Made by a program: the position numbers and the translations under genes. A stretch of DNA of 23,334 nucleotides, from positions 1 to 23,334 of IMG/VR virus record IMGVR_UViG_3300031343_000319; one strand, 5' to 3'. Within the stretch, counting starts at the first letter, position 1; each line of letters begins with the position of its first letter. The stretch comes from a virus. The notes beneath the pieces are model-generated. The model saw only the letters and a program-made list of their open reading frames with translations. It was not told the origin of the DNA and made no database searches. This document shows, piece after piece, positions 842-14,030 of the stretch.

Positions 842-859
842 AAAATTTGTATTATATAA
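842..859 (+). promoter_or_regulatory. Putative phage promoter motif P1
   Basis: The 17 nt AAAATTTGTATTATATA at 842-858 recur exactly at 4692-4708, and a near copy lies at 14014-14028. All three sit in short gaps directly before genes, which argues for a promoter. If TATTAT (850-855) acts as the -10 element, transcription would start near 862, giving a leader of about 150 nt before the initiator gene. No shared -35 element is visible. Confidence 0.5.
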
Positions 860-882
860 ATGATATAATTAATTTTAACGCA

Positions 883-1014
883 ATGAATTTAAAAGGACGT
901 CGTAATACAATTAAAAATATATTTGGCCAAGTTTTGACCCGGAGTAATTGCGATGTCCTTTCAAAAACGCTCCGGGTCTTTTTTTGTTTAATTTTTAATC
1001 CAGAGAAGTTATGA
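883..1014 (+). CDS. Possible leader peptide ORF, 43 aa
   Basis: An ATG at 883 opens a frame (MNLKGRRNTIKNIFGQV...) that reads through the terminator-like hairpin and ends with TGA at 1012-1014, overlapping the ATG of the initiator gene by 4 nt (ATGA). That overlap is the usual spacing of coupled genes in this genome, so translation is possible. Against it, the frame crosses two strong RNA helices and a T tract, and the peptide has no recognisable features. It may be a leader peptide that helps control the terminator, or chance. Confidence 0.25.
   Translation: MNLKGRRNTIKNIFGQVLTRSNCDVLSKTLRVFFCLIFNPEKL
892..961 (+). promoter_or_regulatory. Leader RNA helix competing with the terminator
   Basis: AAAGGACGTCGTAAT (892-906) pairs with ATTGCGATGTCCTTT (947-961) over 15 consecutive positions, 13 Watson-Crick and 2 G-U. 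The loop (907-946) contains the left arm of the downstream terminator, and the right arm of this helix lies inside the terminator loop. The two helices are therefore interleaved: they would exclude each other or form a strained pseudoknot. Placement between promoter P1 and the initiator gene resembles an attenuator or riboswitch. No known riboswitch class is recognised. Confidence 0.5.
936..985 (+). terminator. Intrinsic terminator in the leader of the initiator gene
   Basis: GACCCGGAG (936-944) and CTCCGGGTC (970-978) form a perfect 9-bp GC-rich stem followed by seven T residues (979-985). The loop is 25 nt, large for a simple terminator, because it contains half of the competing helix. It lies 25 nt upstream of the initiator start, so it would abort transcripts from P1 unless it is disrupted. 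Confidence 0.65.
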
Positions 1015-2294
1015 GTTTAAAACACAAGAATATCAATCTCCCAGATGCCATCAATTGTAGTATTTCAAAAGAATACACTCAAATTCCAAACAAATTGTTA
1101 AAAAGCCCTGAAATCTCAGGAAAAGGAAAAGCATTGCTCTGTCTTCTATTAAGCAACAAAGAAGGATGGAAATCTTGTTTATCCGGTATTTCCAAAATGA
1201 TGAAAGAAGGATCAGATGCAATCAACTCAGGCATTAATGAATTGGAAGAATATGGATACTTAATACGGGTTCGTTATCGCGACAAGAAAACCAAAGTATG
1301 GAAAGGTTCTTTTTGGGCATACTCGGATGAACCTTATTCATTCGACATCCAAAAAAATATTCATTGGATTGATTCCAATGAATTAGAAATTTATCTGGAT
1401 GGAAGAACGAAACATAATTTAGGTATGGAAAACCCAGATATGGAAAACCCGGATATGGAGACCCTGGATATGGAAAACCAGGGGCTAATAATATATAATA
1501 ATAATAATATTAATACTAATAAAATTAATTCTAATATTAAATTACATTCCCCGGAACAAAAAAGTTCCGGAGTAAGTGATTCTCCCAAATCAAATAAATC
1601 TACTATTTTGGAAAGGAATAAACAATACCTTCCAATATGTAGTAAATTAAGTAGAATCATTCAATCCAAGAAAAATATAAAACATACCCCGGCTCAGTTT
1701 AGGAATTGGTCAGATGAAATACGCAAATTAGTTGAAGGGAACAAAATATCCATTAAGCGAATTAATATAGCTCTGGACTGGTATAAGAATAGGATTGGAG
1801 AAAAATATATTCCAGTTGTCGAGTCAGGAGCATCGTTAAGAGAAAAATTCACCAGGCTGGAAAATGCAATGAAACGAGATGATGATTATAAAGTTGGTAC
1901 TCCTTTATTCACTCCAGACGAAATCCTAAGTTCCCATTTTGATTCTGATTGGTTATTGAGAGCAATGAAAAACAATTATGAGCAAGTCAATCAATTAGTA
2001 GTAAAAGATGATAAATCAGAGCTTGCCAGTAATTTTTGTAAATTATATGATTGGATTCGAGAAAACCAATCCCTGGAAGTCCTTACCAAAGTAAACGATA
2101 ATGTCAACCCTTCCGGATTAATCAAACAATACATTTTCTGGTTAAAATCGCAAGGATGGTTAGATGGAATATCCTCCCAAACATTTAGCCCTCGTAATAA
2201 TTTATTCAAGAAAATGTTTTTAGGAGCAAAAAACAAAGAACTAAACACAAATGTATTAACCGGAGAATTTGTACCTTCTTATGAGACGAGGTAA
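1011..2294 (+). CDS. Replication initiator-like protein with winged-helix N terminus
   Basis: The N terminus (about residues 18-105: YTQIPNKLL, ISGKGKALLCLLL, then GINELEEYGYLIR followed by a basic wing) has the layout of the helix-turn-helix/winged-helix domain of phage replisome organisers. The middle (residues 139-158) is four copies of a five-residue unit of the type MENPD, followed by an Asn-rich linker encoded by a very AT-rich tract. The C-terminal half is helical, with no motif I can name. The gene lies directly before the methyltransferase and DnaB-like helicase, as expected for a protein that loads helicase at an origin. It starts at ATG 1011 behind the attenuator-like leader. DNA binding is inferred from the domain pattern, and the initiator role from position and the lambda-O-like gene structure. 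Confidence 0.6.
   Translation: MSLKHKNINLPDAINCSISKEYTQIPNKLLKSPEISGKGKALLCLLLSNKEGWKSCLSGISKMMKEGSDAINSGINELEEYGYLIRVRYRDKKTKVWKGSFWAYSDEPYSFDIQKNIHWIDSNELEIYLDGRTKHNLGMENPDMENPDMETLDMENQGLIIYNNNNINTNKINSNIKLHSPEQKSSGVSDSPKSNKSTILERNKQYLPICSKLSRIIQSKKNIKHTPAQFRNWSDEIRKLVEGNKISIKRINIALDWYKNRIGEKYIPVVESGASLREKFTRLENAMKRDDDYKVGTPLFTPDEILSSHFDSDWLLRAMKNNYEQVNQLVVKDDKSELASNFCKLYDWIRENQSLEVLTKVNDNVNPSGLIKQYIFWLKSQGWLDGISSQTFSPRNNLFKKMFLGAKNKELNTNVLTGEFVPSYETR
1425..1570 (+). other. Candidate replication origin inside the initiator gene
   Basis: Four tandem 15-bp units related to ATGGAAAACCCGGAT lie at 1425-1439, 1440-1454, 1455-1469 and 1470-1484; the third and fourth are diverged. An AT tract follows directly (1486-1546), with only three C residues in 61 nt. 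Then comes a hairpin, CCGGAAC (1551-1557) and GTTCCGG (1564-1570), with an A6 loop. Iterons, an AT-rich unwinding region and a hairpin inside the initiator gene match the layout of the lambda origin inside gene O. Origin function is inferred. Confidence 0.5.
2276..2290 (+). repeat. Direct repeat flanking the methyltransferase gene (left copy)
   Basis: TTCTTATGAGACGAG here recurs as TTCTTATGAGACAAG at 3091-3105, with 14 of 15 positions identical. The left copy contains the methyltransferase start codon and the right copy contains the helicase start codon. The repeat brackets the methyltransferase exactly, as expected if that gene was added at the junction between initiator and helicase genes. 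Confidence 0.5.
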
Positions 2295-4691: not shown

Positions 4692-4709
4692 AAAATTTGT
4701 ATTATATAT
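4692..4709 (+). promoter_or_regulatory. Putative phage promoter motif P2 before queD
   Basis: This exactly repeats 17 nt of P1 (AAAATTTGTATTATATA, 4692-4708) in the 39-nt gap between helicase and queD. If TATTAT (4700-4705) is the -10 element, the 5' leader would be only about 10 nt. It would give the 7-deazaguanine cluster its own transcript. Confidence 0.55.
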
Positions 4710-4721
4710 TAAAAGAAAGAT

Positions 4722-5087
4722 ATGTTTACAATCACAAAAGAATTTGAATTTAGCGCTTCTCATCAATTAAATGAATTGGAAGAAGGTCATCCATGTAGTC
4801 GTGTTCACGGACATAACTACAAAGTAAAAGTGGAGTTAAAAAGTAATGAACTTAATCATAAAGGAATGGTTCAGGATTACAGAGAATTAAAGCCGATTAA
4901 AGATTGGATTAATTCTAATTTAGATCATCAACATTTGAATGATATTATTCCAGGTCCAGGCAATCCCACAGCGGAAAATATTGCCAAGTGGATATATTAC
5001 AGATGGAATTCTCGCAAATGTGGTCCTCTACTTTCAGCCGTGGAAGTTTCGGAAACCGATAAGACCAATGCCCGTTATGAGCCTTAG
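4722..5087 (+). CDS. queD: 6-carboxy-5,6,7,8-tetrahydropterin synthase QueD
   Basis: QueD converts 7,8-dihydroneopterin triphosphate to 6-carboxytetrahydropterin, the second step towards 7-deazaguanines. The 121 residues match the family length. The zinc ligands are visible as H14 (FSASHQL) and H29 and H31 (RVHGHNY), the catalytic Cys as C25, the second active-site cluster as D68-H69 with H71 (LDHQHLND), and the pterin-anchoring Glu as E85 (PTAENIA) or E111 (EVSET). No key residue is missing. It lies 39 nt after the helicase behind promoter motif P2 and 66 nt before queE. In phages, queD with folE, queE and a DpdA gene is the hallmark of DNA base modification rather than tRNA queuosine synthesis. 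Confidence 0.92.
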   Translation: MFTITKEFEFSASHQLNELEEGHPCSRVHGHNYKVKVELKSNELNHKGMVQDYRELKPIKDWINSNLDHQHLNDIIPGPGNPTAENIAKWIYYRWNSRKCGPLLSAVEVSETDKTNARYEP

Positions 5088-5153
5088 TATGGTCGATACC
5101 CTTTAATCTACGAGATATTATTCAAGTAAGAAATAGCGTTAAAACTAAGGAAA

Positions 5154-5918
5154 ATGAGTCAACAAATAATTAAAGCATTTCAAAAGCGGGGAAATTTTCC
5201 TTCCATTACAGCTGATAGTCGGTATCTGGATATATCCGAATTCTATTTTGATACTATCCAGGGAGAAGGTATTAACACAGGAGTACCTGCGGCATTCCTC
5301 CGATTACAAAGGTGTCATCTGGGATGTGTGTATTGTGACACAACCGAAGTTTGGCGATTTGGCAATCCTTATTCATTTGATGAATTATTTCAGATGATGG
5401 AAGAATCCGGATTGGTAGATAGATTAAGGGAGGATCAACATCTTATCATAACCGGAGGTAGTCCTTTACTACAAGAATACCGTATTTTTCTTTTCTTACA
5501 TGAATTTAAAGAAAGGTATTCCTTTCCCACTATTACAGAAATTGAGAATGAATGTGTACTGAATCCTTCTTTGCTACTGAATTACATATCTGTTTGGAAT
5601 AATTCACCAAAGTTATCAAGTAGTGGAGTGCATCGTAGAAAGAGATACAGGCCAGAAATTATATCTTATATGTCTTCATTAAACAATTCCTGGTTTAAAT
5701 TTGTAATTGAATGTGAAAAAGATTGGGAAGAGATTCAAATGGATTTCCTGAATTCAGGATTGATTAGAAAAAATCAAATAATACTTATGCCACTTGGTAG
5801 TACGAGAAAAGAGTTATTCAAACATCAGGAAGAGACTGTAGATTTAGCAATCAAACATAATGTAAGATACTGTTCCCGGGAGCATATTGTTCTTTGGGAT
5901 AAAAATGTTGGAGTTTAA
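5154..5918 (+). CDS. queE: 7-carboxy-7-deazaguanine synthase QueE (radical SAM)
   Basis: QueE converts 6-carboxytetrahydropterin to 7-carboxy-7-deazaguanine (CDG) using a [4Fe-4S] cluster and S-adenosylmethionine. The cluster-binding CxxxCxxC is C54, C58 and C61 (RCHLGCVYCDT). The family N-terminal motif FDTIQGEG is at residues 32-39, the SPK motif at 151-153, and a C-terminal LWDKNVGV resembles the usual QueE ending. The SAM-binding TGGEP motif reads TGGSP (100-104), so the normal Glu is Ser. At 254 residues it is slightly longer than small bacterial QueE, with extra sequence around residues 155-180. The ATG start follows AAGGA. The enzyme is probably active, but the Ser substitution is worth testing. 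Confidence 0.88.
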   Translation: MSQQIIKAFQKRGNFPSITADSRYLDISEFYFDTIQGEGINTGVPAAFLRLQRCHLGCVYCDTTEVWRFGNPYSFDELFQMMEESGLVDRLREDQHLIITGGSPLLQEYRIFLFLHEFKERYSFPTITEIENECVLNPSLLLNYISVWNNSPKLSSSGVHRRKRYRPEIISYMSSLNNSWFKFVIECEKDWEEIQMDFLNSGLIRKNQIILMPLGSTRKELFKHQEETVDLAIKHNVRYCSREHIVLWDKNVGV

Positions 5919-5939
5919 TTAATTAATAAAAAAAGTAAA

Positions 5940-6758
5940 ATGAAAAAAAGGTTAAGTACAATGAGTAATGAAGTACGTTTAAACGTACTTCGAGAAACCG
6001 CGCTTGAATTACAAGAGATATGTAAATTCAATCCTCCGTTTCGCTCAAAAGGGAAAACTGAAGAGCAAGTAGTTGATTGGTTGAAGGAAGCTGCTCCGTT
6101 GCTTGAGCTAAATGATGTGGCTGAGATTTCGGCGGATACGAAAGATATACTGGAGCAACTTGGATTTTGGAAGTTTGAAGACAGTAACGAGATTGAAGAT
6201 GCAGAAGAAGTTGAGGAAGAAGAAGAAACCGTAGCGGATAATCTTGATATCATAGCTGAGATTGAGACCGCTCCCTCGGTGAGGGAATTGAAGGATGTTG
6301 CCCGGACGTACGCTGAATTCAAATCCATCCGTGGGAATTTGAGTTCCTATAAAAAAGCAGAGGATTTGAGGGAGTGCATGATAGGGATTCTTAATCCTGG
6401 TGCTGAAAAACCGGAAAAAGAAGTAAAGTTGAAAGTGAAGTCGAAAGCAAAATCAGAACCCTCTCCAAAAGAAAAGAAACCGGAGGAAGAGAAACTTGCT
6501 GAGAAGAAGAAACCGGAGCCAAAAACTGAAAAGAAAAAAGAATCAAGTCCTTCCAAAAGAACAAAAAAAGCTGTAGTAGAAGAAATGATCAATTCTAAAA
6601 CTGGAGCAACAATCGAGGAAATTGCTCAAAAAATCACAGACGAAAAGATTGATCTGGATTATTCTAAAAATTATGTGGTTGCCAAACTATGGCTCAGTAA
6701 AATGAGATTTGATGTAAAAAAAGCAGCTATTGCAAAAAATCCAAAATTCAAAAAATAA
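5940..6758 (+). CDS. Charged low-complexity protein with possible C-terminal HTH
   Basis: I do not recognise this protein. Residues 1-80 are a helical domain. An acidic run follows (about 84-97, EDAEEVEEEEE), then a second helical part (about 105-150), a long linker of K, E and P residues (about 155-205), and a C-terminal segment (about 207-272). The latter reads MINSKTGATIEEIAQKI with later helices and a basic end, and could be a winged-helix or other DNA-binding fold. It sits inside the 7-deazaguanine cluster, 21 nt after queE, and its stop overlaps the methyltransferase start by 1 nt (TAATG). A second ATG at 5961 could also serve as start. A perfect 22-bp palindrome lies within its first codons. 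Confidence 0.6.
   Translation: MKKRLSTMSNEVRLNVLRETALELQEICKFNPPFRSKGKTEEQVVDWLKEAAPLLELNDVAEISADTKDILEQLGFWKFEDSNEIEDAEEVEEEEETVADNLDIIAEIETAPSVRELKDVARTYAEFKSIRGNLSSYKKAEDLRECMIGILNPGAEKPEKEVKLKVKSKAKSEPSPKEKKPEEEKLAEKKKPEPKTEKKKESSPSKRTKKAVVEEMINSKTGATIEEIAQKITDEKIDLDYSKNYVVAKLWLSKMRFDVKKAAIAKNPKFKK
5970..5991. promoter_or_regulatory. Perfect 22-bp palindrome in a coding region
   Basis: The half-site GAAGTACGTTT is followed immediately by its exact reverse complement, with no spacer, at codons 11-18 of the preceding entry. A gapless 22-bp palindrome is not expected by chance in 23 kb. Such symmetry usually marks a site for a dimeric DNA-binding protein. It lies 52 nt downstream of queE, so it could be an internal operator. 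Confidence 0.5.
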
Positions 6759-7612
6759 TGAGTTCTGAGCGTAAAATAGTTCATAAAATAGAAGAAGGAG
6801 AAAATCCAAAAGATGTGTATTGTACTACATATCAGATGCGAAATTTTTATGCTCAATTCGCAGATGGATTTTTTTCTTCTTTGGATGTAATGAATTACAT
6901 CCAGCATCATGCAGCTGTTTTAAAAATGAAAAAAAATTGGAGGGTGTTAGATGTTTGTTGTGGTCGGGGATTACTTCTTCCTCTTATTCGTTATTATAGA
7001 AGGAACATATCAGAATATGTTGGCATTGATATATCTGAGTCAAATATCGGAGAACAAAAAAGAAGATCTGGAATAAAAAAAATAAAAGACATAAAAGAAT
7101 ATTACCCGTTTAAGATATCTCATGTAATAGGTAGTGTGGAAAATATGAATACATACTTCCATGATAATTCTTTTGATTTTATTGTGTATACATCTTCAAT
7201 AGAACATATGCAACGAGATATAGGGTATAAATCCTTACAGCATTGTTTTTCTATATTAAAACCCGGACAGGAAATGTTTTTATCTTGTCCAAATACCAAT
7301 GATAAGCAAGATCCATACGATACTCAATATGCCGCTCACATATACGAATGGGGCATTAATGAATTAAAAGATGCTGTAATTGATATTGGTTTTGAAATTT
7401 CTTCGGAATATGGATTAGTTGGAAAAGTGAAAGATTTTGAAAAGTGGATAAATAATCAATCAGAAAATAAGAAACAGCAATATTTTTCATTAAAGGAATA
7501 TTTGCCTTCCACTTGGTTGATGGCCTTTGCTCCTATTTTATATCCGGAAGCCGCTGCGGAATTACTGTTGATATTAAAAAAACCAAAAGAGAAGAAAAAC
7601 TCATTTTTTTAA
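6758..7612 (+). CDS. Class I SAM-dependent methyltransferase
   Basis: A Rossmann-fold methyltransferase is shown by motif I VLDVCCGRG (residues 63-71), the acidic residue after strand 2 in YVGIDISE (D91), the motif IV-like FDFIVYTSSIEH, and the post-I pattern ILKPGQEMFLSCPN typical of UbiG/Methyltransf_11 proteins. There is no DPPY or PCQ motif, so it is not a usual adenine or cytosine DNA methyltransferase. It lies between queE and folE with 1-nt and 9-nt junctions, so it is probably part of the modification pathway. It might act on a 7-deazaguanine base, nucleoside or DNA residue. That substrate is inferred from position alone; an unrelated small-molecule substrate is possible. Confidence 0.75.
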   Translation: MSSERKIVHKIEEGENPKDVYCTTYQMRNFYAQFADGFFSSLDVMNYIQHHAAVLKMKKNWRVLDVCCGRGLLLPLIRYYRRNISEYVGIDISESNIGEQKRRSGIKKIKDIKEYYPFKISHVIGSVENMNTYFHDNSFDFIVYTSSIEHMQRDIGYKSLQHCFSILKPGQEMFLSCPNTNDKQDPYDTQYAAHIYEWGINELKDAVIDIGFEISSEYGLVGKVKDFEKWINNQSENKKQQYFSLKEYLPSTWLMAFAPILYPEAAAELLLILKKPKEKKNSFF

Positions 7613-7621
7613 AAGTATATT

Positions 7622-8203
7622 ATGTCAAAAGAAAAAGCTGAACAATTGATTTATTCTCAACTTCAATATATTGGAGAAGATCCAAATCGTCCTGGACTGA
7701 TAGGAACTCCTGATCGAGTCGTTAGAATGTGGAAAGAGATATTTAGGGGGTATGATCCAAAGAAGAAACCAGGTATAACCACATTCAGAAACGACTCTGA
7801 TGGATTAGTATATGATCAAATGATTATAGATTCCGGAAAATTTTACTCCTATTGTGAACATCACATGGTGCCGTTCTTTGGTAAGTATTGGTTTGGATAT
7901 ATTCCTTCCTTTGACGGGGCTATTGTAGGATTATCCAAAGTCGCAAGGTTGGTGGATTATCATTCTGCCCGTCTTCAAATACAAGAACGATTAGTATATG
8001 ACATTGTGGAAGACATTTGGAATACATTGAGTAAAGATAATCCTCCGCCGCTGGGTATGGGATTAGTTATGGAAGCTGAACATCTTTGCAAGACTATGAG
8101 AGGAGTCAAGAAAAAAGGAAAAATGACTACTATTAAACTGAAAGGAGCTTTCTTGGATAATGCTAATGTAAAATCAGAATTCCTGCAAAGATGTTCGGTA
8201 TAA
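7622..8203 (+). CDS. folE: GTP cyclohydrolase I FolE
   Basis: FolE opens GTP and makes 7,8-dihydroneopterin triphosphate, the entry step for both folate and 7-deazaguanine synthesis. Family motifs are intact: CEHHMVPF (residues 78-85, zinc ligands C78 and H81), GLSKVARLVD (103-112), the QIQERL helix (119-124), and AEHLCKTMRGV (152-162), which supplies the third zinc ligand C156 and a conserved His. Length, 193 residues, is normal. The gene is coupled to the methyltransferase upstream and the dpdA group downstream, so its likely job here is to feed QueD rather than folate synthesis. Confidence 0.95.
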   Translation: MSKEKAEQLIYSQLQYIGEDPNRPGLIGTPDRVVRMWKEIFRGYDPKKKPGITTFRNDSDGLVYDQMIIDSGKFYSYCEHHMVPFFGKYWFGYIPSFDGAIVGLSKVARLVDYHSARLQIQERLVYDIVEDIWNTLSKDNPPPLGMGLVMEAEHLCKTMRGVKKKGKMTTIKLKGAFLDNANVKSEFLQRCSV

Positions 8204-8207
8204 GGCT

Positions 8208-8372
8208 ATGAAAATTTATTTAGCAGGAACCCCAGGCACTGAACAGAGAGAGAGAGAGTGGCAAAGAATAGCTTCAAAAAGACTACTTTCTTTTTGGGAT
8301 ATATTAAACAATCAATTCTCAGTCCCTTATGCGTTTGATTTAATAAAGAAAAAGAAATGCAAATCCACTTAG
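8208..8372 (+). CDS. 54-aa protein resembling the DpdA N terminus
   Basis: This small gene starts 4 nt after folE and overlaps dpdA by 16 nt. Its N terminus, MKIYLAGTPG followed by QREREWQRIASKRLLSFW, parallels that of the next gene (MQIHLAGVPG, KRERELNPFWEKRLWSYYW). Both have an identical (AG)7 tract at matching places, 8245-8258 and 8409-8422, encoding the RERE segment. It ends YAFDLIKKKKCKST, with no catalytic part. It may be a remnant of a tandem duplication of dpdA, or a real small partner protein. The open frame and tight spacing favour expression. Confidence 0.6.
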   Translation: MKIYLAGTPGTEQREREWQRIASKRLLSFWDILNNQFSVPYAFDLIKKKKCKST

Positions 8373-9415
8373 CTGGAGTTCCTGGAGGAGGATCTTCCGG
8401 AGATTGTAAGAGAGAGAGAGAGTTAAATCCTTTTTGGGAAAAAAGATTATGGTCATATTATTGGATAATTAAAGATAAAGGAAAAATGCCTAAAGAAAAC
8501 AAAATTGATCTTTTCATGGACTCGGGAGCATTCTCTGCCTGGACGCAAGGAAAAGACATAAACATCAATGAATACATCCAGTTCATTAAAGAAAACCAGG
8601 ATGTGATTAATATCTACGCTAATCTGGATGTGATTGGTATAGGTGGGAAACAACCTAATAAATTAACAGCGGAAAAAACATTGGAAAATCAAAAGATAAT
8701 GGAAAAAGCTGGATTATCTCCAGTACCAGTGTTTCACTTTGGAGAGCCTTTTCCGTATTTAAAAGATTATTGTGATAAATATGAATACATCGCTTTGGGA
8801 GTAGCTGGAAATATTGGGGCTAAATTAATTCCTTGGTTAGATAAATGTTTTTCCGAATTTATTTGTGATGAAAAAGGGTATCCAAAAGCAAAAATACATG
8901 GATTTGCCGTAACTTCTCTAAAATTGATGCTTCGGTATCCATGGTATTCTGTTGATTCTACTTCCTGGGTAATAACCGGAAGAATGGGATCCATATTCGT
9001 TCCCTGTGGAACGAAAGGGGAATGGATATACAATAAAACTCCTCGAAAAATTAGTGTATCCCTTCGTAATCCGAATATAAAAGATGAAGGACAACATATT
9101 AATACTTTTTCTCCAATGGAGCAAGAAGTAATTCTTTCATACATTCACAAGAAAGGATACTGTTTGGGTAAGTCTAAATTTAAAGAGGTTGATCAATCTT
9201 ATGAACTACAAAAAAACGAGCGGTGGTTTGAAAAGAAACCAGTTGATAAATTAGAGAAAAGAGAAGTGGAAGTGATTATAGAGGATGGTATATCCAATCG
9301 GTATCAACTCAGGGATGAGATGAATATCATTTATTTTCTTGATCTTGAAAAATCAATGCCGGAATGGCCGTGGCCTTTTACTCAACATCGAAAAATGAAA
9401 AAATTTGAGTTATGA
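8357..9415 (+). CDS. dpdA: DpdA-type DNA 7-deazaguanine transglycosylase
   Basis: DpdA proteins are relatives of tRNA-guanine transglycosylase that exchange guanine for a 7-deazaguanine base in DNA. Features supporting this are MDSGAFSAW (D55), the paired Asp region YANLDVIG (D91), HGFAVTS (181-187), and SVDSTSW, whose D200 is the candidate nucleophile. GVAGN (148-152) resembles the glycine loop that holds the base. The CxCxxC zinc site of bacterial tRNA enzymes is absent, as expected for phage DpdA. The start at 8357 follows from the MQIHLAG motif shared with the flanking genes. Immediate neighbours folE, queE and queD supply the substrate. Which 7-deazaguanine it inserts cannot be read from the sequence. 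Confidence 0.8.
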   Translation: MQIHLAGVPGGGSSGDCKRERELNPFWEKRLWSYYWIIKDKGKMPKENKIDLFMDSGAFSAWTQGKDININEYIQFIKENQDVINIYANLDVIGIGGKQPNKLTAEKTLENQKIMEKAGLSPVPVFHFGEPFPYLKDYCDKYEYIALGVAGNIGAKLIPWLDKCFSEFICDEKGYPKAKIHGFAVTSLKLMLRYPWYSVDSTSWVITGRMGSIFVPCGTKGEWIYNKTPRKISVSLRNPNIKDEGQHINTFSPMEQEVILSYIHKKGYCLGKSKFKEVDQSYELQKNERWFEKKPVDKLEKREVEVIIEDGISNRYQLRDEMNIIYFLDLEKSMPEWPWPFTQHRKMKKFEL

Positions 9416-10607: not shown

Positions 10608-10939
10608 TGAAAAGAATGAAAAGATTTTTTGAAACTGAAAAAGAAGCCACATTCAACGAAAAGTTGAAGTGGGCGTTTATCTGGTTGATGGGAGCTTGTC
10701 GTGTGGTTGAAGGGGATAAAGAAGGTTATTATATGTGGAATAAAGGCCTTCGGGTGAGAAAATACTTTAGGAAAGCCATATTCATTTTACCTGAAAACAT
10801 GCCTACTTCTCCTTGTGATGATCTATCTATTTCAATTGAGGATGACATAGCTATCATTGAACTGTCAAATGCAAAGTACACGTTTCATTTAAGCATGATT
10901 CTGTATGTTTGGAAAAAGTTAAAACCGGTTTTGAAATGA
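10607..10939 (+). CDS. Hypothetical protein, 110 aa
   Basis: I do not recognise this protein. Its start shares 1 nt with the clamp stop (TAATG) and its stop overlaps the next gene by ATGA, so it is embedded in the replisome operon. It has a basic start (MKRMKRFFE), a short hydrophobic helix (LKWAFIWLMGAC, about residues 20-31) and a mixed C-terminal part ending VWKKLKPVLK. The hydrophobic part is too short and mixed for a clear membrane span. Its place between clamp and polymerase suggests a replication accessory role. Confidence 0.55.
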   Translation: MKRMKRFFETEKEATFNEKLKWAFIWLMGACRVVEGDKEGYYMWNKGLRVRKYFRKAIFILPENMPTSPCDDLSISIEDDIAIIELSNAKYTFHLSMILYVWKKLKPVLK

Positions 10940-12156
10940 AAGGTTTTTTTGAGGTAAAGCAAAAACAGAAAACCAAAGCCATGAGTAGTAAAAATACACT
11001 GAGTTGTGTTTCTTGTGGACTGTATAAAGATGTGGTTTCTACTATGATTCAACCTTACGGAAATTTCCGCAAACGAATTCTAAATATAGGAGAAGCACCT
11101 GGTGTAATTGAAGATGAAAGAGGTAAACCATGGCAAGGAAAGATGGGTCGTCTGTTGAAAAAAACATACCGGGAATTGGGAATAGATTTGTTTGAAGATT
11201 GTTTGAATGTGAACGCCGTGAATTGTAGACCTCCAGGGAACAAAACTCCGACTAAACAACAGATCGCTTGTTGTAGAAAAGTAATGGTTGAGAAAATTAT
11301 AAAGGAGTACGCCCCGGACATCATCATTCTACTTGGTGGGTCAGCTGTTAACAGTTTTCTTGATCTCCGGTGGAAAAAGAATCTTGGTGGAATAATGAGA
11401 TGGAGAGGTTGGGCTATACCTGATCGGGATCTCAAAGCATGGGTTTGTCCTACATTCCATCCATCATACGTGGAACGAATGCAGATGGATGGAATTACTA
11501 ATATCTGGAAGGAAGATTTATGGCAGGCGTTTTCTAAGATAGGTGAAAAGCCTCCTATTTTTAAACCTCCGATGATTGATATAATTGATGACCTTCGTCA
11601 TCTCGATGGTATTAATACCGATATAGTGGCGTTTGATTATGAAACCACCGGGATAAAACCACACGCAAGAAGCCATCGGATTGTTTCCTGTGCAGTAGCA
11701 GATAGGGAAGATCACGCTTACGCTTTCCTGATGCCTTCATCAAAAGAGAAACGCAAACCACTTGTCAATCTTTTTCAAAGTAACAAGATTATGAAAGTTG
11801 CTCATCACATGAAGTTTGAAGATCATTGGACTAATAAACGCCTGTATACAGAAATAAATAACTGGGGTTTTGATACTATGCTGTCTTCTCATATTCTTGA
11901 CAATAGAGAAGGAGTGAGTAGTTTGAAATTTCAATCCTATGTGAATTTTGGGATTGTTGGATATGATGATGAAATAACCTCTTACCTCCAATCTAACGAC
12001 AAAAGTGCAAATGCTATGAATAAGATATATGAATTACTTAAGAAACCAGGAGGAAAGGAGAAACTACTTACATACAACGGATATGATGCTGTATTGACCT
12101 TGCGTCTTGCTACCCAGCATATTCATCAAATTGAACATGATTTTTTACCATTTTAA
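10936..12156 (+). CDS. Family 4-type uracil-DNA glycosylase fused to 3'-5' exonuclease (PolA proofreading part)
   Basis: Residues 20-200 are a uracil-DNA glycosylase of the iron-sulfur type. The cluster cysteines are C24, C27, C97 and C112 or C113; motif 1 is GEAPG (52-56) and the second active-site motif is HPSYV (175-179). Residues 215-406 are a DnaQ/PolA-type exonuclease: FDYETTG (D234, E236), HHMKFED (D296) and YNGYD (Y380, D384) are Exo I, II and III. The polymerase domain is a separate downstream gene, so the phage DNA polymerase I is split. The glycosylase might stop copying at uracil or remove uracil as DNA is proofread. ATG 10936 (ATGA overlap) is preferred over TTG 10909. Confidence 0.85.
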   Translation: MKGFFEVKQKQKTKAMSSKNTLSCVSCGLYKDVVSTMIQPYGNFRKRILNIGEAPGVIEDERGKPWQGKMGRLLKKTYRELGIDLFEDCLNVNAVNCRPPGNKTPTKQQIACCRKVMVEKIIKEYAPDIIILLGGSAVNSFLDLRWKKNLGGIMRWRGWAIPDRDLKAWVCPTFHPSYVERMQMDGITNIWKEDLWQAFSKIGEKPPIFKPPMIDIIDDLRHLDGINTDIVAFDYETTGIKPHARSHRIVSCAVADREDHAYAFLMPSSKEKRKPLVNLFQSNKIMKVAHHMKFEDHWTNKRLYTEINNWGFDTMLSSHILDNREGVSSLKFQSYVNFGIVGYDDEITSYLQSNDKSANAMNKIYELLKKPGGKEKLLTYNGYDAVLTLRLATQHIHQIEHDFLPF

Positions 12157-12168
12157 AAAACTTATATT

Positions 12169-12630
12169 ATGACAAAGAAAAAAACAACAAAAAAGTTTCA
12201 AATGAACGAAGGACGTAATAATATGCCAAAATATCAGGCGCCTCCACCTCCACCAAAACCAAACCCAGACCCAAAACAATATCAAGAAAATGCGAAAAAA
12301 TCCAGGGAAGCAATCCTGCAGAATTTGGATCTTATTTACACTACTTGCGAAAAAACAGCAACAAGTTTTAACACGGATAAAATTTCTTTACGTTTCTTGC
12401 GAATAGTTATTAATAGTGCCAGACCAAAATTTGTAGATAATAAATCTGTTAACCAATTGATTGAAGCGTATCATCAAACTTTAAATGAATTATATCAGGC
12501 TTGTGAATCCCGTGCCAAAATGATTAATAAGAACAACTCCGATGTATCACTCCACCGTATAAAATTTTTTATAGACTTCATTAAAAAAGAATACAAATCA
12601 GTATTAAAAGATGTACATATTGGAAACTAA
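12169..12630 (+). CDS. Hypothetical proline-rich protein, 153 aa, between the two polymerase genes
   Basis: I do not recognise this protein. The N terminus is basic (MTKKKTTKKFQ) and is followed by a proline run (about residues 24-36, APPPPPKPNPDP). The rest (about 42-150) looks all-helical, with a C-terminal amphipathic helix FFIDFIKKEYKSVLK. It separates the exonuclease and polymerase genes: 12 nt after the first, and overlapping the second by 20 nt. A bridging or accessory role in the split polymerase is an inference from position. The proline run looks like a flexible tether. Confidence 0.55.
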   Translation: MTKKKTTKKFQMNEGRNNMPKYQAPPPPPKPNPDPKQYQENAKKSREAILQNLDLIYTTCEKTATSFNTDKISLRFLRIVINSARPKFVDNKSVNQLIEAYHQTLNELYQACESRAKMINKNNSDVSLHRIKFFIDFIKKEYKSVLKDVHIGN

Positions 12631-14005
12631 AGATGCTTATAAACTCTTTCATCAAGGGACTCTTGCTTTGGCTCGGGCGGAACGACAAGGTATCCGGGTG
12701 GATATTGATTATATTCGCCAGAAAAAACAAGAATTAGATCAAAGAATTGAGGAGGTAGAAGAAGAATTAAAACAGACAAAATTCTACAGGCAGTGGACAC
12801 ATTCAAGAGGAGAACAGGGACCTAATATTAATAGTAATCCTCAGCTGAAACAGTATCTATACAAAGTTAGAAAAGAAACCCCTCCAAAAGAAACTGCATC
12901 CGGAGCCGGGTCAACTGATGAAAAATCTTTGAAAGAATTAAACATTCCGGGATTGAATTATATACTGGAAATTCGGAAGTTGAAGAAATTGAAAAATACT
13001 TATCTGGATCAGTTTGAAAGGGAGGCGATAGATGGATATATACATCCATTTTTCAACTTACATACAGTACAAACTTATCGTTCCTCTTCAAACAACCCAA
13101 ACTTTCAAAATATACCTGTGCGGGATGAAGAAGCAAAACTAATTACCCGACGGGCTTTGTTTCCGCGTCCCGGACATCAATTATTAGAGATTGACTATAG
13201 TGGATTGGAGTTCAATATCAATGCTTGTTATTCAAAGGATCCGGTGATGTTGGAATATTGTAGGAATCCAAATTCCGACCCTCATGCTGATGTGGCAGAA
13301 CAAGTATTTCTCATTAAGTATGATCCTTCCATTACAGGACACAAAGTGTTAAGAAGTGCGGCAAAGAATGGGTTTACTTTTCCGGAATTATATGGAGATT
13401 ACTACAAAAATTGCGCTATTGGTTTAGCATGTAACTGGGGAGAATTGAAGCCTGCTGGTAGATGGAAGAAAAAGCAAGGAATTGAATTAGAGGATCTCTC
13501 CCTTTCTGATCATCTTATCAACAACGATATAAAGTCATTGTTTGAATACACGGATCACATTAAGAAAGTAGAAGGGAATTTCTTTGATCGGTTTGCCATT
13601 CACAGAAAATACATGGAGGAGACTTATAATGATTACCTTGAAAACGGAGTAGTTAAATTCTACACTGGGTTTTCATGTAAAGGAGTATTGACAAGAAACC
13701 AAGTATTAAATTGTAGAATTCAAGGGAGTGCTTTCCATATACTTTTGAAAAGTTTCATTAAGTTAGATGCTATAATGAGACAAGAGAATTGGGATACCCG
13801 GTTGATAGGGCAGATTCATGATTCAATTGTATTTGATGTTCATCCGGACGAACTGGAACAAGTAACAAAAACCGCACATGAAATAACCACGAAAGAAGTA
13901 CCAGCAGAATGGACTTGGATTATTGTTCCACTAAAAATAAATATGGAATTAAGTCCGGTTGATTGTAGCTGGGCAGATAAAAAAGATTATAATTTTTCTA
14001 AATAA
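12611..14005 (+). CDS. DNA polymerase I (family A), polymerase domain only
   Basis: The 464 residues hold only the polymerase part. Motif A is LLEIDYSGLEFNI, with metal-binding D195. Motif B is R248-SAAK252 followed by YG at 261-262, one residue longer than in E. coli PolA. Motif C is IGQIHDSIVFDV, where the usual HDE is HDS (403-405) and D404 is kept. A thumb-like segment, YRSSSNNPNFQNIPVR (156-171), precedes motif A. No exonuclease signature is present; proofreading is encoded by the gene at 10936. ATG 12611 lies within the end of the preceding gene (20-nt overlap), pointing to translational coupling. Confidence 0.9.
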   Translation: MYILETKDAYKLFHQGTLALARAERQGIRVDIDYIRQKKQELDQRIEEVEEELKQTKFYRQWTHSRGEQGPNINSNPQLKQYLYKVRKETPPKETASGAGSTDEKSLKELNIPGLNYILEIRKLKKLKNTYLDQFEREAIDGYIHPFFNLHTVQTYRSSSNNPNFQNIPVRDEEAKLITRRALFPRPGHQLLEIDYSGLEFNINACYSKDPVMLEYCRNPNSDPHADVAEQVFLIKYDPSITGHKVLRSAAKNGFTFPELYGDYYKNCAIGLACNWGELKPAGRWKKKQGIELEDLSLSDHLINNDIKSLFEYTDHIKKVEGNFFDRFAIHRKYMEETYNDYLENGVVKFYTGFSCKGVLTRNQVLNCRIQGSAFHILLKSFIKLDAIMRQENWDTRLIGQIHDSIVFDVHPDELEQVTKTAHEITTKEVPAEWTWIIVPLKINMELSPVDCSWADKKDYNFSK

Positions 14006-14012
14006 TAGAAAT

Positions 14013-14030
14013 AAAAATTGTATAATATAA
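14013..14030 (+). promoter_or_regulatory. Putative phage promoter motif P3
   Basis: AAAATTGTATAATAT (14014-14028) matches the P1/P2 core at 13 of 15 positions, with similar flanks (GAAATAAAA before, TAAAAGAAA after). TATAAT (14021-14026) fits a -10 element, with a start of transcription about 12 nt before the next ATG at 14045. It would drive the clamp-loader segment. Confidence 0.5.

Follow-up and report, generated by a model that had tools for sequence, protein, structure and literature searches.

The leader RNA at positions 862–1010 of the window, by which we mean the complete 23,334-base virus record IMGVR_UViG_3300031343_000319, is a divergent relative, and not a canonical member, of a family of 51 distinct leaders found in Bacteroidota-type phages, mostly ahead of replication genes. 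The reading that we favour, tentatively and at a little under even chance, is that it belongs to this cis-acting phage family as a transcription attenuator gated by the pairing of a hairpin loop with an upstream stretch of the same RNA. The promoter motif, the covariation of the stems, the loop complementarity, the U-run and the position are the sequence-based parts of this reading; we infer that the U-run terminates transcription, that the loop contact changes termination, and that some factor shifts it.

Results and Discussion

As the sequence-only reading had proposed, the leader stands before a replication initiator: the gene at 1011–2294 (+ strand) encodes a 427-aa, HTH_36-like replication-initiation protein that matches phrog_428 with E 5e-16 and that would be the regulated gene, and downstream of it come a DNA methylase and then a DnaB-like helicase. 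Four plus-strand arms make up the structure. Arm a (892–906, AAAGGACGTCGTAAT), near the predicted 5′ end, pairs with arm c (947–961, ATTGCGATGTCCTTT), the loop segment of a terminator-like hairpin, in a 15-bp helix that includes two G–U pairs (899:954 and 903:950). Arms b (936–944, GACCCGGAG) and d (970–978, CTCCGGGTC) are the 5′ and 3′ strands of that hairpin and form a perfect 9-bp stem, which a U–G pair at 945 lengthens to 10 bp and which is followed by a T7 run (979–985, + strand), a U-run as in an intrinsic terminator. The two helices are interleaved in the order a-b-c-d, and their arms share no nucleotides. Both helices, the T7 run and the interleaving had been read from the letters with correct coordinates, and the terminator-like hairpin is real: among 2000 dinucleotide shuffles of 862–1010, a helix as strong as a:c arose in 4, a stem as strong as b:d in 47 and two comparably strong interleaved helices in 1, while the loop pairing a:c has p 0.001. 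Scanning the 23-kb window for loop-paired terminators ranks the leader first, at 58.4 vs 41.2 for the next site; a simple terminator scan did not pick up the b:d hairpin because its loop exceeds 8 nt. The folding energy of 862–1010 as a whole is ordinary (z −0.42, with 59 of 200 shuffles folding equally well). Within the hairpin, GAGTA (942–946, + strand) follows directly upon a 6-bp outer stem (936–941:973–978), at the site of the GAGUA that is conserved in the family (alignment A6).

Rfam 15 gave nothing at gathering score in the window and nothing meaningful at E up to 5, in keeping with the earlier statement that no known class of riboswitch is recognised. Searches of 50,697 phage and 72,556 plasmid records with the leader DNA returned nothing similar, and among 19 related virus records it yields short scattered DNA matches only; sequence similarity is therefore absent, and structure alone is kept.

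Relatives were gathered as virus contigs via helicase, polymerase and initiator proteins. The nearest of them, L018, has an initiator 51–52% identical over its N-terminal part and carries a canonical leader at the same place, with the same a-b-c-d order in unrelated letters: the loop of a 9-bp hairpin reads GTACCCG and that of the larger hairpin CGGGTAC, its exact complement. Further leaders have a conserved core in the larger hairpin: GAGTA and GAAA stand on opposite sides, and beyond them come an inner stem and a 6–7-nt loop. Seeds were collected by two pattern scans of the virus collection (11 loci and 86 loci) and by a structure-based regular expression run over the fetched loci. The latter gave 14 matches, of which 11 entered the seed; L041 and L044, both on the minus strand, and L146 were left out, their loop complements of 5, 0 and 5 nt being known at the time, and their inclusion would put the loop count at 10/14. 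Covariance model R1 was built from the 11 seed hairpins and R2 from alignment A7, which holds 58 model matches from 56 source loci after removal of duplicate contigs. For the set of 51 members, 54 of the 58 A7 rows were used (the near-duplicates L201, L189 and L202 and a weak second match in L205 being omitted) and three duplicates were then dropped. The order of elements in the family is a sigma-ABfr-type promoter, hairpin I, hairpin II, a U-run and the start codon, with hairpin II composed of an outer stem, a GAGUA/GAAA internal loop, an inner stem and a 6–7-nt loop.

All 14 pairs covary in the seed, both partners of each pair being seen to change; pairing extends to 92.9% of cells, and the covariation score of 0.932 compares with 0.254 for shuffled alignments and with at most 0.349 when the alignment is slid. 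A7, an alignment fitted to the model, likewise has 14 covarying pairs, with 95.3% of cells paired and a score of 0.861 vs 0.196 shuffled. The inner stem, for instance, occurs as GGTG/CACC, CGGG/CCCG, GCTG/CAGT and CCTT/AGGG, and the U-run after the stem recurs in the relatives. Compensatory changes, the absence of which the sequence-only reading had named as the test against itself, are present: stems and loop pairing are kept with wholly different letters, and that objection therefore fails decisively. Of 49 virus records, 28 have an R2 match, as a rule a single one; two records carry two strong copies each, and one of these two pairs of copies (L216, L244) has differing loop words, each matched in cis. 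Some close initiator relatives, L087, L067 and L066 among them, lack such a leader.

The pairing between the loop of hairpin II and an upstream word recurs throughout the family. Upstream, the loop has a perfect complement, 6 nt or longer, in 47 of the 51 members, against 2 members downstream and 1 in sense orientation, with 36 distinct loop words among the 51; four members are without a 6-nt complement. Three loci without upstream loop pairing were set aside, namely L134 (GCGAAAGC tetraloop, R1 E 0.0065), L142, which precedes a likely homing-endonuclease gene, and L135, whose loop complement lies downstream; L134 is not among the A7 rows, and counting it makes the loop pairing 47/52. A 20-member set, comprising the 11 seeds and 9 model matches picked regardless of loop pairing, contains 17 members whose loop finds a perfect complement, 6 nt or longer, in the 80 nt upstream, and none with one downstream or in sense orientation. 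The second pattern gave 54 places, of which 19 met the stem criteria, all 19 being paired; the 35 that failed these criteria were paired in 19 cases, with 6 downstream and 3 sense complements. As a raw count with no chance control, 16 of the 20 members have a hairpin I (stem of at least 5 bp) that carries the upstream word in or at its loop, the stem overlapping arm a in four of those 16.

Outside these virus records the family was sought in three places. The exact first pattern occurs at 17 places in cellular genome contigs, none with a convincing loop partner; R1, run with strict filters and without a positive control, matched 0 of 395 Bacteroidota genomes; and R2 found no convincing copy in ten cultured Cellulophaga, Flavobacterium, Tenacibaculum and Bacteroides phages, the best being a 42-nt match with E 8.5e-4. 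In 15 source entries taken from relatives, L130 and L132 among them and some entered twice, no leader matched Rfam at gathering score. By E-value, a search with four short stretches returned a TEG147-like match in L132, and a long AT hairpin of L137 gave microRNA-like matches to Rfam as well. Away from its leader, the phage contig L075 contains a permuted tmRNA (RF04321, 55.9 bits, above threshold) at 6822–7056.

With filters off, the best R2 match in the window is 933–989 (+ strand, 21.9 bits, E 0.016), the next scoring 16.6 bits; the outer stem, the 25-nt interior and the U-run align and the inner part does not. R1 finds no match in the window up to E 5. The window leader keeps the family's position immediately ahead of a replication-initiation gene and in sense orientation, the outer stem of about 10 bp around a loop region of about 25 nt, the U-run behind it, the GAGUA and the pairing of the loop with the 5′ end, here over 15 bp. 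We call it a divergent relative because GAAA and the 4-bp inner stem are absent; it also lacks hairpin I, there being no stem of at least 5 bp around 892–906. These losses bear on the suggestion that the region has the shape of a riboswitch, which finds no support: the only conserved letters are those of the GAGUA/GAAA internal loop, half of which is lost in the window. Two relatives resemble the window, L036 and L072, with loop-pairing p values of 0.037 and 0.004; R2 gives a marginal match to the former (E 0.15) and none at the leader of the latter. L071 has neither an R2 match nor a marked loop pairing (p 0.16). Arm a is close to the predicted RNA start in the window, L036 and L072, and these three sequences thus suggest a possible variant in which the RNA 5′ end itself is paired into the loop.

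A predicted Bacteroidota-type promoter lies at 846–877 (+ strand) of the window, with TTTG at 846–849, a 20-nt spacer and the box TAATTTTA at 870–877, from which the RNA start is predicted at about 882–884. The spacing is that of the family motif TTTG-N20-TAnnTTTG, and the box deviates from TAnnTTTG in its last letter only. Among the 51 members, TAnnTTTG occurs upstream of hairpin II in 36, vs 7.4 expected from shuffles, and the bipartite TTTG-N19–21-TAnnTTTG in 10, vs 0.23 expected, 8 of these having N20. In the member-by-member listing the box is mostly directly ahead of hairpin I, so that the RNA of the family probably begins just before this hairpin. TTTG/TAnnTTTG is given as the sigma-ABfr consensus of Bacteroidota in the description we draw on (PMC7366714), and since the promoter follows it the hosts are probably Bacteroidota; the relative L239 has DNA stretches in common with Flavobacterium and Cellulophaga phages. 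A scan for sigma-70 motifs was uninformative (14 sites vs 14.5 expected). As regards a counter-transcript over the leader, promoter-like sites are no commoner than in shuffles, and there is only a weak minus-strand terminator-like site at 939–925.

Several other elements of the window deserve mention. The stretch 4722–9415 encodes members of the 6-pyruvoyl tetrahydropterin synthase (QueD-like), radical SAM (QueE-like), GTP cyclohydrolase and queuine tRNA-ribosyltransferase families and is likely a 7-deazaguanine DNA-modification cassette. AAAATTTGTATTATATA occurs exactly at 842–858, before the initiator leader, and at 4692–4708, right before the QueD-like gene, with a third copy carrying two mismatches at 14013–14029; at least three matches arise in 4 of 100 shuffles, and the word is likely a shared promoter element. 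L018 has, at 5196–5262, a terminator-like hairpin of 12 bp with a loop of 43 nt and a T-run; it lies between a similar promoter-like motif and a QueD-like gene, the leader of which may carry an attenuator of its own. Upstream of the initiator leader, the inverted repeat AACCGACAGGT / ACCTGTCAGTT (733–743 / 795–805) is a possible operator. Two frames, 10909–12156 and 12611–14005, match successive parts of the DNA polymerase profile phrog_17 with a 153-aa frame between them, and 10909–14005 is, as judged from these profile matches, a split polymerase gene.

Scanning one downstream gene per member (51 proteins, with overlapping PHROG memberships) gave replication-initiation, helicase-loader and replisome PHROGs as the commonest families: phrog_428 in 13 of 51, phrog_186 in 11, phrog_270 in 10, phrog_678 in 8 and phrog_4880 in 7. 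The other products include helicases, DUF6291, HNH and GIY-YIG proteins, an antirepressor domain and a Mom-like protein. HNH/GIY-YIG-like proteins, so labelled from sequence beginnings and family tallies, come right after the leader in L123 (3609–3995), L239 (8936–9610), L209 (3041–3544), L205 (5286–5687) and L212 (5204–5860); in L123 the endonuclease-like gene stands between leader and initiator, and the leader may be a homing target.

The distance to the downstream gene is short, the start codon lying 5–40 nt past the end of the stem in 47 of 50 members, and the U-run often touches the start codon and so could serve translation instead. On this proximity rests the strongest rival to attenuation, which we nonetheless regard as unlikely: a translation or mRNA-stability leader in which the loop-paired hairpins would shield the 5′ end and the U-rich stretch would be a landing site for ribosomes, in line also with the Bacteroidota-type promoters directly upstream, which would give a short structured 5′ UTR. 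It has to contend with three leaders in which the start codon is distant (104 nt in L137, 93 nt in L075 and 67 nt in L206) and the U-run is nevertheless fixed to the stem, as expected of a terminator.

On the attenuator reading, RNA polymerase would start at the sigma-ABfr-type promoter and make arm a first, in most relatives as the 6–8-nt loop of the small hairpin I; next would come the large terminator-type hairpin with its U-run, immediately ahead of the replication operon's first gene. With such a hairpin and U-run between promoter and first gene, expression of the initiator would therefore need read-through. The hairpin loop c would pair with a in the same RNA, as a 6–7-bp kissing contact in most relatives and as a 15-bp helix with the RNA 5′ end in the window, and this contact would set the frequency with which polymerase halts at the U-run and thereby the amount of initiator.

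How the two helices relate to each other is where the sequence-only reading fares less well, in that it took them to be probable alternatives. The corresponding mechanism is a switch in which a:c and b:d exclude each other, a:c forming first as an antiterminator and the terminator forming once a:c is opened. In the window, both strands of a:c have been made by about nt 960, when arm d is still to come, and the two nested folds of the leader are nearly equal in total energy (−24.9 and −23.8 kcal/mol, the helices a:c and b:d themselves scoring −17.6 and −16.2 kcal/mol); exchange could for these reasons still take place there. We nevertheless judge the switch unlikely, as the arms do not overlap in sequence, the 8-nt linker may yet span the 15-bp helix if the 5′ end is free, and the pairing in most relatives is a 6–7-bp loop–loop contact which, involving a short hairpin I, is compatible with the terminator stem. 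One composite structure is likelier than two exclusive states, because in canonical members an inner stem closes the loop and lets contact and terminator form together. In the window, where the predicted 5′ end adjoins the helix arm, pairing of a free 5′ end into the loop may be all that happens.

The 43-codon frame noted earlier does exist (883–1014, + strand), ending in ATGA at the initiator ATG (1011), but is doubtful as a gene: it has no Pfam or PHROG match, and it would be leaderless given the predicted RNA start at about 882–884. Bacteroides 5′ UTRs shorter than 10 nt make up about 3.7% in the data described (PMC7366714). Translation of this frame could in principle open or close the helices and couple to the initiator start via ATGA. 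In the window as in L036 and L072, an ATG close to the predicted 5′ end begins a frame that stays open through the hairpin, and the three leader frames have in common a short motif like RIYNI/TIKNIF at residues 8–13, noticed by eye in these three sequences. Such leader-peptide control is highly improbable in our estimation: an open ATG frame through hairpin II is present in 7 of the 51 relatives only and is no general feature, the motif-bearing trio was picked by eye, and the frame would lack a leader.

Within the attenuator reading, the candidates for the factor that shifts the effect of the loop contact are the initiator, a host protein and the leader RNA itself. We give little credence to the last in its strongest form, in which the terminated leader would be a diffusible self-antisense RNA, a and c pairing within one molecule or between two. 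If true, leader RNA from many phage genomes would bind nascent leaders and adjust their termination, and the system would serve as a copy-number gauge and a barrier to superinfection, with the fast-changing loop words as specificity codes.

The closest known systems each differ in one or more respects. In the plasmids pT181 and pIP501 a terminator also lies between promoter and replication initiator and loop contacts decide termination, but the partner is a separate antisense RNA, whereas that of the window leader lies in the same RNA. The repZ leader of IncI-alpha and IncB controls a replication initiator by a pseudoknot and the repY leader peptide; this is translation activation in plasmids, with an antisense RNA and without a terminator hairpin. 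TAR–TAR* and ColE1 RNA I–RNA II offer hairpin loops of 6–7 nt fully paired to each other, though between two molecules and not within a terminator leader. HK022 put, a two-stem nascent RNA made after an early phage promoter and acting on termination (PMC9378689), provides a further rival: the folded leader would bind RNA polymerase, which would then ignore the leader's own and later terminators. The family leaders are likewise two-stem RNAs of about 70–100 nt just after the promoter, usually with one copy per record. A put-like role is improbable all the same, for put, compared here by its description, is presented there with a triplex and non-canonical pairs and with neither kissing loops nor an attached U-run of its own (PMC9378689).

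The nearest structural likeness is to TEG147 (RF03535), the model of which has the layout of hairpin II of L132, that is, a 9-bp outer stem, GAGUA, a 4-bp stem, a loop, CGAAA, the outer stem and a U-run. The L132 match reaches 22.4 bits, far below the gathering score of 56.1, and the TEG147 model has no match in the window. TEG147 is described as a 60-nt S. aureus RNA among bona fide sRNAs (PMC5826253; see also PMC3053349) and is said to have become an Rfam family in a course (PMC7779021); Rfam lists it as Cis-reg. Neither a loop partner nor a function is given in the portions of these descriptions that concern it. Our literature search found no described phage leader with kissing loops in the portions of the sources that it returned.

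Conclusions

The leaders form a covariation-supported RNA class that stands at the head of replication operons and has no Rfam family at threshold, and they may link to S. aureus TEG147 through the same hairpin layout. The loop pairing is testable by simple loop swaps, for which nature offers many matched loop pairs. For phages of Bacteroidota, dominant in gut and water, the timing of replication is to our knowledge little understood. Dozens of other phages carry a similar leader in different letters, and it is probably a little-known switch on phage replication.
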